A stretch of 64,000 nt of DNA, from positions 248,001-312,000 of the forward strand of contig JACQEP010000004.1 of the NCBI GenBank assembly GCA_016200485.1, given 5' to 3'. Below the pieces are notes generated by a model. That model saw only the letters and a program-made list of their open reading frames with translations. It searched no databases and was not told where the DNA came from. Positions 6,001 through 49,674 of this stretch are shown here, piece by piece (within the stretch, counting starts at the first letter, position 1; every line of letters begins with the position of its first letter). A program made the translations under genes and the position numbers. The stretch is from Gammaproteobacteria bacterium. GTDB lineage: Bacteria > Pseudomonadota > Gammaproteobacteria > Tenderiales > Tenderiaceae.

Positions 6001-6367
6001 GTAATAGCCCTGCCAATGAGGCGATCAGACGAATGTCCTCACCACTGTGCCAATCGTTTTCATCCTGGCTGCGCAACACATTGCGTTGCGTGGTATTGGT
6101 CGGCGTGGCCCCTTGGGCATTGAATTGCGTGGCGTCACCCACGATCCACAACAATTCGCTGTGGTCTTTACCTCTGATCCAATGGCACGCGACAGCGGTA
6201 TTTTTACGCGCGGTTTTGCGCAGCATTTTATGCAGGGTTTGCAGCCCATCCCTGGTGATATGGGTTTGCCAGGTGCGATCACCCCGGCGTTCCGCGAACT
6301 GATCGAGAATACGGCGCGTCTCACTCAGCGCCCGTTTGCTGCATTGAGAGACAAGCAATACATTCAT
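3086..6367 (-). CDS. cas3: Cas2/3 fusion helicase-nuclease, type I-F
   Basis: A 1093-aa Cas2-Cas3 fusion, the layout diagnostic of type I-F. It serves as adaptation partner of Cas1 and as the nuclease-helicase that degrades targets marked by the Csy complex. Residues 1 to about 95 are the Cas2-like domain. An HD nuclease motif LLHDLGKAND has HD at 123-124. A Walker A ASTGCGKT lies near residue 420, then a DEPD box (LVLDEPDDF), motif III LLSSATLP, and motif VI QLAGRVRRHRQG near residue 900. All catalytic motifs look intact. The ATG overlaps the cas1 stop as ATGA, which implies coupled translation. Confidence 0.97.
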   Translation of the reverse strand: MNVLLVSQCSKRALSETRRILDQFAERRGDRTWQTHITRDGLQTLHKMLRKTARKNTAVACHWIRGKDHSELLWIVGDATQFNAQGATPTNTTQRNVLRSQDENDWHSGEDIRLIASLAGLLHDLGKANDAFQKKLKSKTPLADAYRHEWVSLRLFEAFVSGSSDETWLQRLVELTPEKMPVWLNEIKSDGLGKSQRGPFRTFDNKAPLASLIGWLIVSHHRVPAPIGDDHPSLEQLGELPRSIAANWCGAREVSEQERAACWSFRKGLPFASKHWCEHASKLAKAILQRPQLLTTDWFENPYVVHLSRMALMLADHYYSAQESHSRYGDADFPLIANTLRDGSNTPNQRLDEHLIGVEINASRIMQALPRMGHQLPRIARHKGFCQRRKIPRFRWQDKAFDLASSLQTKSSEQGFFGINMASTGCGKTLANGRIMYGLADPQQGVRFNIALGLRTLTLQTGDAYRTRLGLGDEDMAVLVGGGPVRELFEKQKELDRQESSLAQRGAESSEGLIPESNHVHFEGSLEDGPLNKWLSSNHDAQKLLNAPILACTIDHLMPATESTRGGHQIAPMLRLMSSDLVLDEPDDFALEDLPALTRLVHWAGMLGSRVLLSSATLPPALVQGLFQAYLAGRSVYQKNRGLHGLAVNICCAWFDELNTPQSTLCDAGDNYLQAHLQFVDKRQTQLAKAAQQEQRRKAVIKPLEIALGQTRPAICQALAAELHQQLHALHAAHHTPDPITGKRVSFGLIRMANINPLVQVAQALYTLGGQSDCHVHLCVYHAQHPLLVRSAIEKRLDKLLNRNEDHDIFADAELRQILDQLQEQNHLFVILATQVAEVGRDHDYDWAIVEPSSMRSIIQLAGRVRRHRQGMVESPNIYLLDTNVLHLEKPGEPAFCRPGFESNHFRLESHRTSGLLTQDQLAVIDASSRIREREPSNPKQNLVDLEHACLHDLMLGAKEGDQQIRLPALWWWQTRANLSAYLQNRQPFRYDPDDNQRYALLLDDDGQIEFCQYLPNGVVNHVNNLLHRIELIQGPRISFWGAPDYLAAVSELAEFLNQDEAACARRYGYIDLPEDKNGKGWSYDQALGFSKY

Positions 6368-7344
6368 TGAGCTTTGCTCCCCAACTCCGTTGCAATGGCC
6401 TTCAGGGTATCAATCATAAAATCGAGTGACTCATTGCGGGTCAGCCCTTCGATGCAGGCTTGGCGGAACTCCTGTTCGTCATGTCCGGCCATGGCGGAAA
6501 TAAATGCCTGCGGCAGGATAGTGGCGTCTTTCACCAGATCGGCAACATCAAACACCAAACCACCTCGCCGTGTTTTGCCATGCAGCACCGCCAAACCATG
6601 AGGCAGTCCCAATACCCATGTGGCTGTGGCGCCAAGTCCGTAAGCAAGGTAATTGCCGTGATCGAGAAAGCGATTAGCTGGATCAGAGCCTGTACCATTT
6701 TTGGCGCGGGTGAACTCTTCGTCATATCCCACCGTGCGCACGGCGATTTTAAAAAGCTCCTTGGTCAGACGAGCTTCAAGGGTGAGCAGATCATTGGTAC
6801 TGGGTGCCACTTCAATGGCAGCTGCGGTGCGTTCCAACAGGGGTTGAAGCAGATTGCGCAATATATCAAAACCTGCCTCACGGAGGGGACGACTATTCAG
6901 CCACTGCTGCTCCAGACGTTGCAGTCGCGCCTGCTGAAAACGTTTGGCCGCTTCAAGGCGCAGTGCATCGTCAAACCAGAAACGTACCCAGCACTGAAGA
7001 TATTCGGTGGGTCGGTATTCGCTTTGTGGTGATAACCAGGCAACCTCCACATCCACTTCGTTGGCGCTGAACAGCGGTGTGCCGCCTCCACCACAGAAAC
7101 CCACCAGCACACCAGCTTTGGCCAATTCGCGCATCGCCGCTTGGGTGATCGAGGTTCCTGTCCCCAGCAAAACACAGGTGGTGTTGGCGATGGGGATATT
7201 CCAATAGAGGGATGACTTGCCCTCATCAGTGACGTACTCCACTCGCCCACCATTCACCAGCACGCGGCAATGTTGCAGGTAATAGATGTTGGCACGCTTG
7301 GAGTGCAAAACACTTTTTAAATCGCTGGGTGATATGTCATCCAT
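6364..7344 (-). CDS. cas1: Cas1, type I-F spacer integrase
   Basis: A 326-aa Cas1 of the I-F type, the integrase that inserts new spacers with Cas2/3. I chose the start MDDISPSDLKSVLHSKRAN because I-F Cas1 proteins normally begin this way. An in-frame ATG 13 codons upstream is less likely. Family signatures are YYLQHCRVLVNGGRVEYVTD, LLGTGTSITQAAMRELAKAG and VGFCGGGGTP. Likely metal ligands sit in LEARLTKELFK and in the HGKTRRGGLVFDVAD region near the C-terminus. It is the first gene of the cas operon and overlaps cas3 by 4 bp. Confidence 0.96.
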   Translation of the reverse strand: MDDISPSDLKSVLHSKRANIYYLQHCRVLVNGGRVEYVTDEGKSSLYWNIPIANTTCVLLGTGTSITQAAMRELAKAGVLVGFCGGGGTPLFSANEVDVEVAWLSPQSEYRPTEYLQCWVRFWFDDALRLEAAKRFQQARLQRLEQQWLNSRPLREAGFDILRNLLQPLLERTAAAIEVAPSTNDLLTLEARLTKELFKIAVRTVGYDEEFTRAKNGTGSDPANRFLDHGNYLAYGLGATATWVLGLPHGLAVLHGKTRRGGLVFDVADLVKDATILPQAFISAMAGHDEQEFRQACIEGLTRNESLDFMIDTLKAIATELGSKAQ

Positions 7345-7370
7345 ATTTCCTATCTCTCTATCCCCATCCA

Positions 7371-7405
7371 GCGGATTACGCAAAAAACGCTCATCCGCCC
7401 TACAT
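7371..7405. repeat. REP-like hairpin of the TGTAGGGCGG family upstream of cas1
   Basis: Arms GCGGAT and ATCCGC flank an A-rich loop, followed by CCTACAT. Read on the minus strand it begins ATGTAGGGCGGATGAGCG. A clean member of the same family lies inside the prophage at 28668. This one sits in the leader between the Bro gene and cas1. Confidence 0.6.
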
Positions 7406-7458: not shown

Positions 7459-8325
7459 TCAGCTCTTTCTCTTCTTTTTGGCCGCCTTGGATTTTGTCAG
7501 CTGTTTGTTTCTGGTGACCGGTAAATAATGACTGCCTGAAACCACCTTGTTACCCGTTTTGCTTTCCAGCTCTTTGCGTGCCCGTTTGGCGATGCCGCCG
7601 CCACTCTTTGCGGCGTTTTCATTTTCTTTCATGCCTGTGGCATCGGTGCTTTCGGCGATCTGACGGGTGGACAATTCGGCCAGTGCGGTGAAGATCAGCT
7701 CTGCTTCGGTCATGTGGTCGTGCAGGTTGTGATCTTTAAGTCCTTTCATTTCTTTGTGTTGTTTTACGCTTACGCCAGTCCACTCCTGATGAATGATGTT
7801 GGTGAGGATGGCAAACTCTTCACCCTGTTTTATGTCGTGGTCGGCCCAGTAGTCGGTGAGTTTGTTGCGGCTCTCCTGCCCGGTCATGCGTTGCTGTATC
7901 CATTTGTCGCTGCGGCCATGTTGTTTCCAGGTTTCGCGGGCGCGGTCGAGCGAGCGTGAGGGGTCGGCCATTTCCTGCATCCGTTCGTAACCGACCTTGG
8001 CCAGCCATAATTTGATCGGTTCTGCCTTGGGGCTGGGGACGGACTGCATCAGACGGAGCAGGGTTTCGGCGGTGGCGACATCGGTGGGGCGTTGCTTGCC
8101 GTCGGCGGCGGCCATTTTCAACTGGTTACAATTTGTAACCACTTCACTACCTTCCTTGGCCAGACGATTTTTCAATACTTTCCAATAGTTCCGGGCTACT
8201 TGGAAATCGGGCTGCTGTGTAAGCACCTGAACAATATCGACTACGGAGAACCACCAGGTTTCCGACTCGTTGTCATAGACCCGGCGGATTTGATGGCTTT
8301 CGAACAGCGCCATGTCGGTTTTCAT
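7459..8325 (-). CDS. Bro-N domain protein, phage antirepressor-like
   Basis: A 288-aa protein with an N-terminal Bro-N fold: FESHQIRRVYDNESETWWFS, then VVDIVQVLTQQPD and RNYWKVLKNRLAKEG. The C-terminal half carries the segment LWLAKVGYERMQEMADPSRS and a helical EWTGVSVKQHKEMKGLK. It ends in a lysine-rich tail, SKAAKKKRKS. Bro-N proteins bind DNA and are often phage antirepressors or DinD-like. It lies in host DNA immediately left of the prophage and 115 bp upstream of cas1 on the same strand, so readthrough into the cas operon is possible. Its actual role here is unknown. Confidence 0.75.
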   Translation of the reverse strand: MKTDMALFESHQIRRVYDNESETWWFSVVDIVQVLTQQPDFQVARNYWKVLKNRLAKEGSEVVTNCNQLKMAAADGKQRPTDVATAETLLRLMQSVPSPKAEPIKLWLAKVGYERMQEMADPSRSLDRARETWKQHGRSDKWIQQRMTGQESRNKLTDYWADHDIKQGEEFAILTNIIHQEWTGVSVKQHKEMKGLKDHNLHDHMTEAELIFTALAELSTRQIAESTDATGMKENENAAKSGGGIAKRARKELESKTGNKVVSGSHYLPVTRNKQLTKSKAAKKKRKS

Positions 8326-8470
8326 TTATCAACATCTCTCTGATATGGAGGGTGGATTGAAGGTCTGGAAAAGCCGGGCAATTACCCTCTCCTCGGCAAC
8401 TGCTCCATGCGTTGCCCTACCTCGTGCATCCCGGCAATTGCTCCTGCATTGCCCTATCTTCCGCCATCCA
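8326..8470. repeat. Host hairpin-repeat cluster at the prophage insertion site
   Basis: This non-coding stretch holds two tandem hairpin units about 38 bp apart: GGCAAC at 8395-8400 with GTTGCC at 8411-8416, and GGCAAT at 8433-8438 with ATTGCC at 8448-8453. They are linked by short GC-rich spacers. The right edge, CCGCCATCCA, is the left half of a palindrome whose other half (TGGCGG) lies at 47874 beyond the prophage. A 31-bp piece (8392-8422) recurs in reverse orientation at 38207-38237 inside the prophage with one mismatch. Confidence 0.8.
8466..8470. repeat. Left target-site duplication ATCCA
   Basis: ATCCA directly precedes the prophage TG terminus and is repeated directly after the right CA terminus at 47869-47873. 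Mu-family transposition makes a 5-bp duplication of this kind. Confidence 0.9.
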
Positions 8471-36756: not shown

Positions 36757-37187
36757 ATCTGGATTTAACAATTCTTGATGATGCCGTGCTGTCGCGATTG
36801 CAGGATCAATGCGCCGGGTTACGCACCATCGCCACGCTGGAATATGAAGAGCAGGTGCTGGAAAACACCTCTGACCCATTGCCCGCCGTTTATACGCTGA
36901 TCAACGGTGCAGCCTATGACACTGAGGCGGGTAATAGCCGTTATCAGGAGGGCGATGTCACTGTCACTGTGTTTGTGAAGACTCGCAATCTGCGCGGCTT
37001 CGGCGCAGCGCGCAAAGCCGATGACGGCGCCTACGCCATGATCCAGCAAGCCGCGACCGCACTGCTGGGCTACGCGCCCGGCGGCTGCGGTTATTTCAAT
37101 CTGGTCGAGATCGGCGCGGTGCGCGTCACCAAGCTCGACGCCATTTATGCCATTCAATTTACTGCTGCCACTGAGGAGAGCTACTAA
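36753..37187 (+). CDS. Mu gp37-like protein (DUF1834)
   Basis: A 144-aa DUF1834 protein with YEEQVLENTSDPLPAVYTLI, GAAYDTEAGNSRYQEGDVTV and RNLRGFGAARKADDGAYAMI. These are head-tail joining proteins in Mu-type genomes. Overlaps both neighbours by 1-4 bp. Confidence 0.83.
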   Translation: MNLDLTILDDAVLSRLQDQCAGLRTIATLEYEEQVLENTSDPLPAVYTLINGAAYDTEAGNSRYQEGDVTVTVFVKTRNLRGFGAARKADDGAYAMIQQAATALLGYAPGGCGYFNLVEIGAVRVTKLDAIYAIQFTAATEESY

Positions 37188-38143
37188 TGCCAACCAATTA
37201 CAAAGGCGGAAATTCACAACTGCTGCTGCAGCGTCAGCTGGTGGCGCGCACCGCGCCGACACCTGCCGCGTTCAAGATGAAATTCCTCGATCTTGAAATC
37301 AGTGATAGCGAACCCTATGCCGAGAACAATACCATCGACAACTCGTCGCCGCTGGGCGCGAAGCTCGGGGATTCCGATGAGGCGTGGACTGCAAAGCTTA
37401 ACGCGCCGCTCGACCTCAACGACATCGGCCAATGGCTGGCGCTATTGTTGGGTGCGCCGGTGACGACCGGTGCCGGGCCATACACGCATACCTTCACGCT
37501 CGGCCTGAGCGACCGGCCGTTTGCATTGTTGGATCTGGGGTACACCGATGCGCCCAAATATCGCCGCTGGCTGGATACTGTGATCAACTCGATCAGCTGG
37601 AATATCGCTGAGCGCGATCAGAACATGAGCCTTGATCTGGCACCAGCAGTGGAAGTGGTTCCGCGCCCGAGTGCGGTATTTCATGCCTCCCCCACCAGCT
37701 TTGCCGCCAACCGCGCCTGTAAAAAGGCGGGGAATATTTACGATGTCTCCGGATCCAATACGCTAGGTCGTGTCACAGCGGCTAACATCAGCATCAGTAA
37801 TAATCATGAGTCGGTGCATATTGCAGATGGACTCGCTGGGTACGGCGCTCACATTCTGGGTCTGCCATCGATCAGTGGCAGTCTGACAGCGTTATTCGGC
37901 AGCGATTCTGCGGTGATGGACTACATGGAAGGCCACACCTCCAAGCCGCTGGTGTTGGTGAGCAAGAACGCCGCTGGCGATAACTCGCTGACCGTGAATA
38001 TCGCCAATGTCGAGTTCGATAAACCCAAGCACAAGGTGCCAACCAGCAAGGGGTTGTTGATCGATACCAACTGGCGCGCCCACTCCGGCGGCGCGGCACC
38101 GACCATCGTGCTTGTGAATGGGATTGCCAGCTATGCGTCATAA
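37187..38143 (+). CDS. Phage tail tube protein
   Basis: A 318-aa tube protein as in non-contractile Mu-like phages. Segments include MPTNYKGGNSQLLLQRQLVA, LGLSDRPFALLDLGYTDAP and LPSISGSLTALFGSDSAVMD. No sheath gene accompanies it, which supports a siphovirus tail. Length and position before the chaperones fit. Confidence 0.85.
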   Translation: MPTNYKGGNSQLLLQRQLVARTAPTPAAFKMKFLDLEISDSEPYAENNTIDNSSPLGAKLGDSDEAWTAKLNAPLDLNDIGQWLALLLGAPVTTGAGPYTHTFTLGLSDRPFALLDLGYTDAPKYRRWLDTVINSISWNIAERDQNMSLDLAPAVEVVPRPSAVFHASPTSFAANRACKKAGNIYDVSGSNTLGRVTAANISISNNHESVHIADGLAGYGAHILGLPSISGSLTALFGSDSAVMDYMEGHTSKPLVLVSKNAAGDNSLTVNIANVEFDKPKHKVPTSKGLLIDTNWRAHSGGAAPTIVLVNGIASYAS

Positions 38144-38396
38144 GAGTGCTCAGACTGAATCCCCTCTCCCGCTAGCGGGAGAGGGTAACGAGCGCATGGA
38201 TGCGCGAGGTAGGGCAACGCATGGAGCGGTTGCCGAGGGAGAGGGCGTCACGTTCATCGATGCGCATTATCAGCAGCGCGATATCGAAATCGACGGCGCG
38301 ATGCTGGAAGTGCGAGGCGGTCGCGTCACAGTCACCGATCCCACGCTCATCGATGCACTGGATAAAACGTATGGAATGACACGGGAGAAAAACTGA
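38133..38396 (+). CDS. Small tail-region protein carrying an in-frame host repeat
   Basis: An 87-aa ORF overlapping the tail tube stop. Residues about 10-38 derive from an 87-bp block of host-type repeats (ESPLPLAGEGNERMDARGRA then THGAVAEGEG) that keeps the frame open. The remaining part, VTFIDAHYQQRDIEIDGAML, looks like an ordinary phage protein. The stop overlaps the next start as TGATG. Function is unknown and it may be damaged or tolerant of the insert. Confidence 0.7.
   Translation: MRHKSAQTESPLPLAGEGNERMDARGRATHGAVAEGEGVTFIDAHYQQRDIEIDGAMLEVRGGRVTVTDPTLIDALDKTYGMTREKN
38161..38247. repeat. 87-bp host-type repeat block inserted in a tail gene
   Basis: It starts with the perfect palindrome CCCTCTCCCGC-TA-GCGGGAGAGGG (38162-38185), then GCGCAT-GG-ATGCGC, then GGCAAC-10 nt-GTTGCC (38213-38234). 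The last part matches 8392-8422 at the prophage target site at 30 of 31 positions, inverted. The palindrome recurs at 49516-49539. 87 bp is a multiple of three. Confidence 0.85.
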
Positions 38397-38764
38397 TGTT
38401 GATGCTGGGTGCACCCAAACAAGAAGTGAAATGGCCAGAGGCTGGAATCACGCTGGAGCTGATTCCATTGCCCGAAGATGTCGATCAAAAACTGGTGCGC
38501 GAAACGGTGATCGAGGTGCGTGATGACAAAGGCAAGCTCACCGACGTGAAGCGCGACGTGACCCGCTACGCGCAACTGGTCGGAAAACACTGCATCAAGG
38601 GCTGGAGCGGTGTGGTCAACGCCGAGCGTGAGCCAGCAGCATGCACACCCGACGCCATCGATCAGTTCATGCTCATCGATGTCGCGCAGACATTCGTGTT
38701 TGGCAAGGTGAAGGGGCTTGCCTTGCATTTAGCCAACGAGGTCGACGACGCAAAAAACGCCTGA
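38396..38764 (+). CDS. Tail assembly chaperone G-type
   Basis: A 122-aa chaperone-like protein starting MLMLGAPKQEVKWPEAGITL and ending EVDDAKNA, located between tube and tape-measure genes. Its 3' end holds the -1 slippery heptamer A-AAA-AAC two codons before the stop. This is the standard G/GT arrangement of siphovirus tails, in which G binds and solubilises tape measure. Confidence 0.82.
   Translation: MLMLGAPKQEVKWPEAGITLELIPLPEDVDQKLVRETVIEVRDDKGKLTDVKRDVTRYAQLVGKHCIKGWSGVVNAEREPAACTPDAIDQFMLIDVAQTFVFGKVKGLALHLANEVDDAKNA
38752..38758 (+). other. Programmed -1 frameshift site A AAA AAC
   Basis: The heptamer is in the correct phase of the chaperone frame (GCA AAA AAC GCC TGA). A -1 slip enters an open frame of 98 codons ending at the tape-measure start. 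Confidence 0.85.
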
Positions 38765-49437: not shown

Positions 49438-49515
49438 GTTTTCATCTTCCCCACTTCTTCAGAACTTCTCTATTGATACGGCATGAATATGTTTGAAATC
49501 GCGCCCTCTCCCCAA

Positions 49516-49539
49516 CCCTCTCCCGCTCGCGGGAGAGGG
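49516..49539. repeat. Host palindrome CCCTCTCCCGC/GCGGGAGAGGG
   Basis: Perfect 11-bp arms around TC, the same palindrome as in the phage tail gene at 38162. It lies in the 237-bp gap between two host genes, where it is a simple intergenic hairpin. Confidence 0.8.
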
Positions 49540-49674
49540 GGTATTCGTGCCGATCGAAGTTAAAACTTCTTTTGGCCGGATCAATAAGAACCTGATTCCA
49601 CTCCGATATCCAACCTTCCCGATCCCAACCCTATCACATGTCCTATTCCAAAACGTGATGCACCTCATCGCCTT

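Follow-up and report, generated by a model that had tools for sequence, protein, structure and literature searches.

In a Mu-like prophage of a tenderiaceous gammaproteobacterium, two dispersed repeats of the host genome, which together form a composite, have very probably entered a small phage gene situated between the genes for the tail tube and a tail-assembly chaperone. The DNA analysed (the window) is a stretch of 64,000 nt from Gammaproteobacteria bacterium (Tenderiaceae; GCA_016200485.1, contig JACQEP010000004.1, positions 248,001-312,000 of the forward strand), and its prophage, with Portal_Mu and Phage_Mu_F domains, is Mu-like.

The composite repeat and its phage gene

The initial annotation of this DNA had described an 87-bp block with three dyads, held in frame after the tail tube gene, and this description is borne out (Table 1). 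The dyads are CCCTCTCCCGC-TAGC-GGGAGAGGG (38162-38185), GCGCATGGATGCGC (38192-38205) and GGCAAC...GTTGCC (38213-38234). The reported match of 30 out of 31 bases with 8392-8422 was recovered as well, on the opposite strand; the first palindrome, thought to equal one at 49516, is nearly but not fully identical to it (23 of 24 bases, 49516-49539). The block indeed consists of host-type repeat DNA, although not of a single repeat: a 39-bp CCCTCTCCC hairpin repeat is split by a 48-bp element nested within it. When 38189-38236 was removed by script, the joined flanks formed a 39-bp sequence that is identical to 49502-49540 at 36 positions (92%) and matches 10 further places in the host genome sample. 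The inner element reads CGA, a 6-bp stem with a GG loop, GAG, GTAG, a 6-bp stem with a 10-nt loop, and GA. Both lengths, 39 and 48, are divisible by three, and five of the six frames of the element are open, so that the ORF survived; it begins at ATG38118 or ATG38133, overlaps the stop codon of the tail tube gene and ends with the stop at 38394-38396.

Table 1. Positions of the features in the window.
Feature	Position	Strand	Basis or remark
Tail tube gene (Phage_tube_2)	37187..38143	+	Pfam PF18906 E 2e-16, PHROG 290
Small phage gene with block	38133..38396	+	87 aa from ATG38133, 66 aa from ATG38196
Tail assembly chaperone-like gene	38396..38764	+	PHROG 313 E 9e-6; 61% identity to L245
Composite repeat, in frame, 87 bp = 29 codons	38160..38246	+	Alignment with L245, L246, L248, L249
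Outer 39-bp CCCTCTCCC hairpin repeat, left part	38160..38188	+	Joined flanks vs 49502-49540
Inner two-hairpin element, 48 bp	38189..38236	+	cmsearch 78.3 bits, full length; boundaries from empty sites
First hairpin of element, 6-bp stem, GG loop	38192..38205	+	Stem covariation
In-frame ATG within element (alternative start)	38196..38198	+	
GTAG motif, directly 5' of second hairpin	38209..38212	+	Sequence
Second hairpin GGCAAC / 10-nt loop / GTTGCC, nearly invariant	38213..38234	+	
Outer hairpin repeat, right part	38237..38246	+	Joined flanks
Second window copy of 48-bp element, left stem degraded	8393..8433	-	cmsearch 48.3 bits, E 7e-10
Empty copy of outer hairpin repeat, without 48-bp element	49502..49540	-	Joined-flank match

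Neither motif gave a match in 100 dinucleotide shuffles, which together with the genome search rules out chance palindromes. No Rfam family matched above its gathering score in 38000-38500, and a weak match to a known structured RNA, Antizyme_FSE (18 vs 40 bits), was disregarded. An integron attC site was considered from the GGCAAC/GTTGCC arms, but the attC consensus boxes do not seem to fit. The second element copy in the window is located outside the phage genes: directly to the left of the prophage lie a Cas1 and a Bro-N gene (6364-7383 and 7459-8325), and the degraded copy is found between these and the phage genes.

Close relatives of the phage are rare, and first searches with the tube protein alone gave none. 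Alignment of the neighbouring terminator protein yielded L245, and tube alignment then yielded L246, L248 and L249, all from IMG/VR. Their tube proteins are 49-54% identical to ours, and the synteny of the small gene and the chaperone gene was read directly in the four loci; in more distant phages the small gene is absent. In all four relatives it encodes 59-66 aa and lacks the block. The small gene studied here is 49% identical to the syntenic ORF of L245 over a 47-aa core, and in the alignment the block separates a variable N-terminal stretch from the conserved core, which begins V-T-F/Y-x-D. That the block is a native part of this phage family is rejected on the basis of these four relatives; phage relatives carrying the same segment without repeat nature, which the initial annotation had named as evidence against its reading, were looked for and not encountered. 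AlphaFold2, run on five sequences only, gave a mean pLDDT of ~46-61 over residues 1-40 and ~86 over the core; the model thus predicts a confident beta-rich fold for residues 39-87 and a low-confidence N-terminal tail, including the insert, that is probably disordered. Because the relatives are only ~50-60% identical, the order of insertion and the original N-terminus are not readable from them, and since their ribosome-binding stretch is missing here, the event may have involved more than plain insertion.

That the block remained in frame, as the initial annotation stated, is clear; that it adds 29 residues to the protein is unproven, since the element carries an ATG of its own (ATG38196), and the possible starts before the conserved core, a point overlooked earlier, lie only inside or upstream of the block. 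We rate a small protein with a 29-residue insert (peptide MRHKSAQTESPLPLAGEG) and one that starts at the element's ATG (MDARGRATHGAV) about equal. The latter, whose chances we put marginally short of even, would mean that the repeat replaced the start region, with GGGAGAGGG of the outer hairpin as ribosome-binding site and an incidental upstream frame. The resulting 66 aa are within the range of the relatives, whose strong Shine-Dalgarno sequence between tube stop and start is lacking here; the upstream ATGs have weak ribosome-binding sites only, and N-terminal REPs have often turned out to be extragenic in fact (PMC3733652). However, a strong hairpin encloses the SD-like GGGAGAGGG, which lies 10-11 nt from ATG38196, the sequence ATGCGTCATAA, where the ORF overlaps the tube stop, permits coupled re-initiation at 38133, and the N-terminal MRHKSAQT is similar to the MANKTQT of the relatives.

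Host copies and wider distribution of the 48-bp element

The whole-genome count proposed in the initial annotation yields 29 host copies of the inner element by blastn and 33 with a covariance model, the best copy outside the tail gene having E 1e-24. The 48-mer of the tail gene is identical to one host copy (L006), differs by 1-2 bases from four others and by 2 from the closest sampled foreign copy, and resembles the host subfamily more closely than it does nearly all of the foreign copies sampled. Judged from this identity and closeness, the phage copy was likely acquired from this host lineage.

At least five other repeats serve as sites for the host copies, each target family being occupied at a constant position and with the element always in the same orientation (a slash marking the element): CCAACGCGGA/GACGCAGAGACGCGG; the CCCTCTCCC hairpins, GGTTA/GGGTGAGG; GGGGTG/GGGTGGTGG; GAAAAAGCGGA/GTTTACACG; and TGTA/GGGTGGGTTAGC. 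For 25 of the 29 copies the joined flanks match intact targets across the junction in a 26% sample of the genome (~780 kb, window included), whereas random intergenic 70-mers do so in 16% and random positions in 8% of cases (Fisher p ~3e-15; the controls were searched against slightly less sequence, 779 vs 897 kb including duplicates). The joined flanks restore empty targets, and no target duplication was seen. The target repeat GCGGA/GTTTACACG...AATGAGCATTTTGAG is split at one point by two subfamilies of the element, CGAC and CGAG, in different species (L150, L168, L317 and L318, besides L013 and L017 of the host itself), and this pattern suggests repeated independent insertion.

Within the Gammaproteobacteria, the covariance model detected the element in 69 of the 369 genomes and 54 of the 272 genera sampled, with a distribution that is patchy even inside the family of the host. 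The matches listed by a pattern scan of contigs included Methylococcaceae, Chromatiaceae, Solimonas and Endozoicomonas, among others, again inside repeats. The first stem covaries, keeping its pairing through compensatory changes: it is 87% paired, where shuffled columns reach 71% on average and 74% at most (2000 shuffles). The second stem yields no evidence of covariation because the search pattern had fixed it, and it is nearly invariant; almost every copy retains GTAG. The element boundaries agree with tandem arrays whose period is exactly 48 bp. Such head-to-tail arrays occur at L181, L191, L209 and G178:C7:2768-2911, and some are in frame in long ORFs, where they would form 16-residue protein repeats.

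The parallel drawn earlier with palindromic elements able to invade coding sequence is a good one, as other in-frame intragenic copies exist. Among 132 copies, several keep the reading frame of a conserved gene; the genes concerned are cysN-like, recC, yhdP, one for a histidine kinase, those of transposases of the IS91 and IS110 types and a Fic-family gene. Pfam domains run across the insert in CysN, RecC and the IS91-like transposase, and domain matches flank it in YhdP, the histidine kinase and IS110. The commonest frame, DCMDAGGRATHGAVAE, is that used in the tail gene (ERMDARGRATHGAVAE). A second phage carries a nested composite of the same kind in frame in a capsid/protease-type ORF (Phage_capsid_4; L321:5136-7445, IMGVR_UViG_3300022240_000048, and L322); it sits on the opposite strand, and the relative L326 (47% identical) lacks it. 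A degenerate in-frame copy, DDCMDAGGRATQDAKAD, was also noted in the BREX gene pglX of a plasmid (L323:3501-3533, NZ_CP133280.1; NZ_CP093250.1).

Probable origin and proposed mobility of the element

We propose that a REP-like element of 48 bp inserts with base precision within or beside other hairpin repeats, its orientation being constant for each target family. It would move as single-stranded DNA, with an enzyme acting in trans, and the copy in the tail gene would derive from the present host lineage. Lying in a variable and predicted-disordered tail just before the core, the insert would for that reason be tolerated by the protein, either as 29 additional residues or as a new N-terminus from the element's ATG, and the change may have been close to neutral for the phage. 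In draft assemblies, repeats may collapse or misjoin. An assembly artefact or chance low-complexity sequence is, however, highly improbable here: the flanks of the block are two parts of one gene that is syntenic with four relatives, shuffled sequences gave no matches, and a similar composite occurs on two other contigs of another phage. Somewhat unlikely, too, is that ordinary recombination or replication slippage copied an existing chromosomal composite and that the element has no dedicated mobility. Composites of outer repeat and element are indeed present elsewhere in the host (L002-L005; L003 is 88% identical over 86 bp), but in many taxa the element has precise 48-bp edges at fixed points of at least five unrelated repeats, and its CGAG and CGAC subfamilies occupy one target repeat in related species, which together fits targeted insertion better than plain recombination; for the tail gene taken alone, plain recombination may still account for the block.

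As to the mobilising enzyme, our leading but tentative guess is one of the RAYT type. The element would then be a GTAG-REP mobilised by a Y1 tyrosine transposase (RAYT/TIRYT) that cuts single-stranded DNA at the GTAG-tagged hairpin, a possibility to which we give roughly one chance in three. It is consistent with GTAG directly 5' of a hairpin, the covarying stem and the lack of target duplication, and the host has 9 Y1 transposase genes, some of whose terminal repeats are among the target repeats; in G062 the element splits the terminal repeat of one such gene. No transposase associated with the element was found, however: none of the nine host Y1 genes is flanked by it, although some of the scanned ORFs were wrongly oriented, and 845 kb of foreign loci gave zero matches, a weak test as only some query ORFs were correct. 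Moreover, the junctions on the GTAG strand are A/C and A/G instead of the CT of the REP transposases studied biochemically (PMC8266576). Y1 genes are present in 11 of 12 element-rich vs 8 of 12 element-free genomes, a co-occurrence that is suggestive at most. The well-assembled genome G248 (99% complete) holds at least 13 copies and no detectable Y1 transposase gene, which may point to a different mobiliser or to an enzyme since lost. The hairpin terminal repeats GTAGGGTGCGC, GTAGGTCGGGTTAGCG and GTAGGTTGGGGTGACGAAGG, which flank Y1 genes at L037, L038, L040, L041 and L311, are among the targets of the element. A broader reading, which we hold with even confidence, is that of an undescribed, horizontally spread 48-bp mobile hairpin with base- and strand-specific landing in palindromic repeats, which by virtue of its length and codons would act as a frame-neutral 16-codon cassette in genes of hosts and phages and sometimes form exact tandem arrays or provide a start codon.

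Known repeat families and significance

Coding palindromes such as the Rickettsia palindromic elements (RPEs), intragenic GTAG REPs, REPs nested in palindromes and possibly non-coding N-terminal REPs have already been described (PMC3733652, PMC2229807, PMC10969869). GTAG REPs, of which intragenic copies and copies inside longer palindromes are known (Di Nocera et al. 2013, PMC3733652), resemble the 48-bp element in their GTAG by the hairpin, their dispersed, tandem or grouped copies, their in-frame copies in repair genes such as recBCD and, in some species, their insertion inside other palindromes. Accordingly placed GTAG is found here at the foot of a short stem-loop (38209-38212, before GGCAAC...GTTGCC), and the 33 copies in the host genome are dispersed and mostly intergenic. 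In contrast, GTAG REPs are single stem-loops of 20-40 bp or inverted dimers, whereas this element is a 48-bp unit with two different, non-inverted hairpins; it also differs in that at least 54 genera have one sequence in common, its target repeats are several and unrelated, some copies lie in structural genes of phages, and no associated transposase was seen. With the RPEs it shares a palindromic repeat that lies in frame in unrelated, conserved genes (CysN, RecC, YhdP, histidine kinase, transposases) and would be tolerated as extra peptide, but these are by description ~100-150 bp long and specific to Rickettsia, whereas the 48-bp element is nested in other repeats and occurs in Gammaproteobacteria and in phages. 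As with TIRtrons/TIRYT, GTAGGGTGGGTTAGCG-type hairpin repeats flank Y1 transposases of the host and serve as targets (PMC3733652), although the element itself is not such a terminal repeat at any locus examined. MITEs such as ERIC and the 107-bp Correia repeat (PMC2229807, PMC10969869) are likewise small, non-autonomous mobile elements whose open frames are fused to those of genes; unlike these, the element has ends (CGA...CGA) that are not terminal inverted repeats, and neither a TA duplication nor any other was seen at the restored targets. No description of the 48-bp family was found in the open-licence literature by sequence words and topic, a search that does not reach sequences in figures. 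The kind of element, REP- or RPE-like coding palindromes, is therefore known, and the 48-bp family apparently undescribed.

New protein segments can arise when small repeats enter coding regions. Owing to the sharp 48-bp edges, the many empty sites, the covarying stem and the wide taxonomic spread, the choice of targets and the mobilising enzyme are now directly testable. The copies in two phage structural genes indicate that phage genes too acquire such repeats, and phages could transfer them between hosts.
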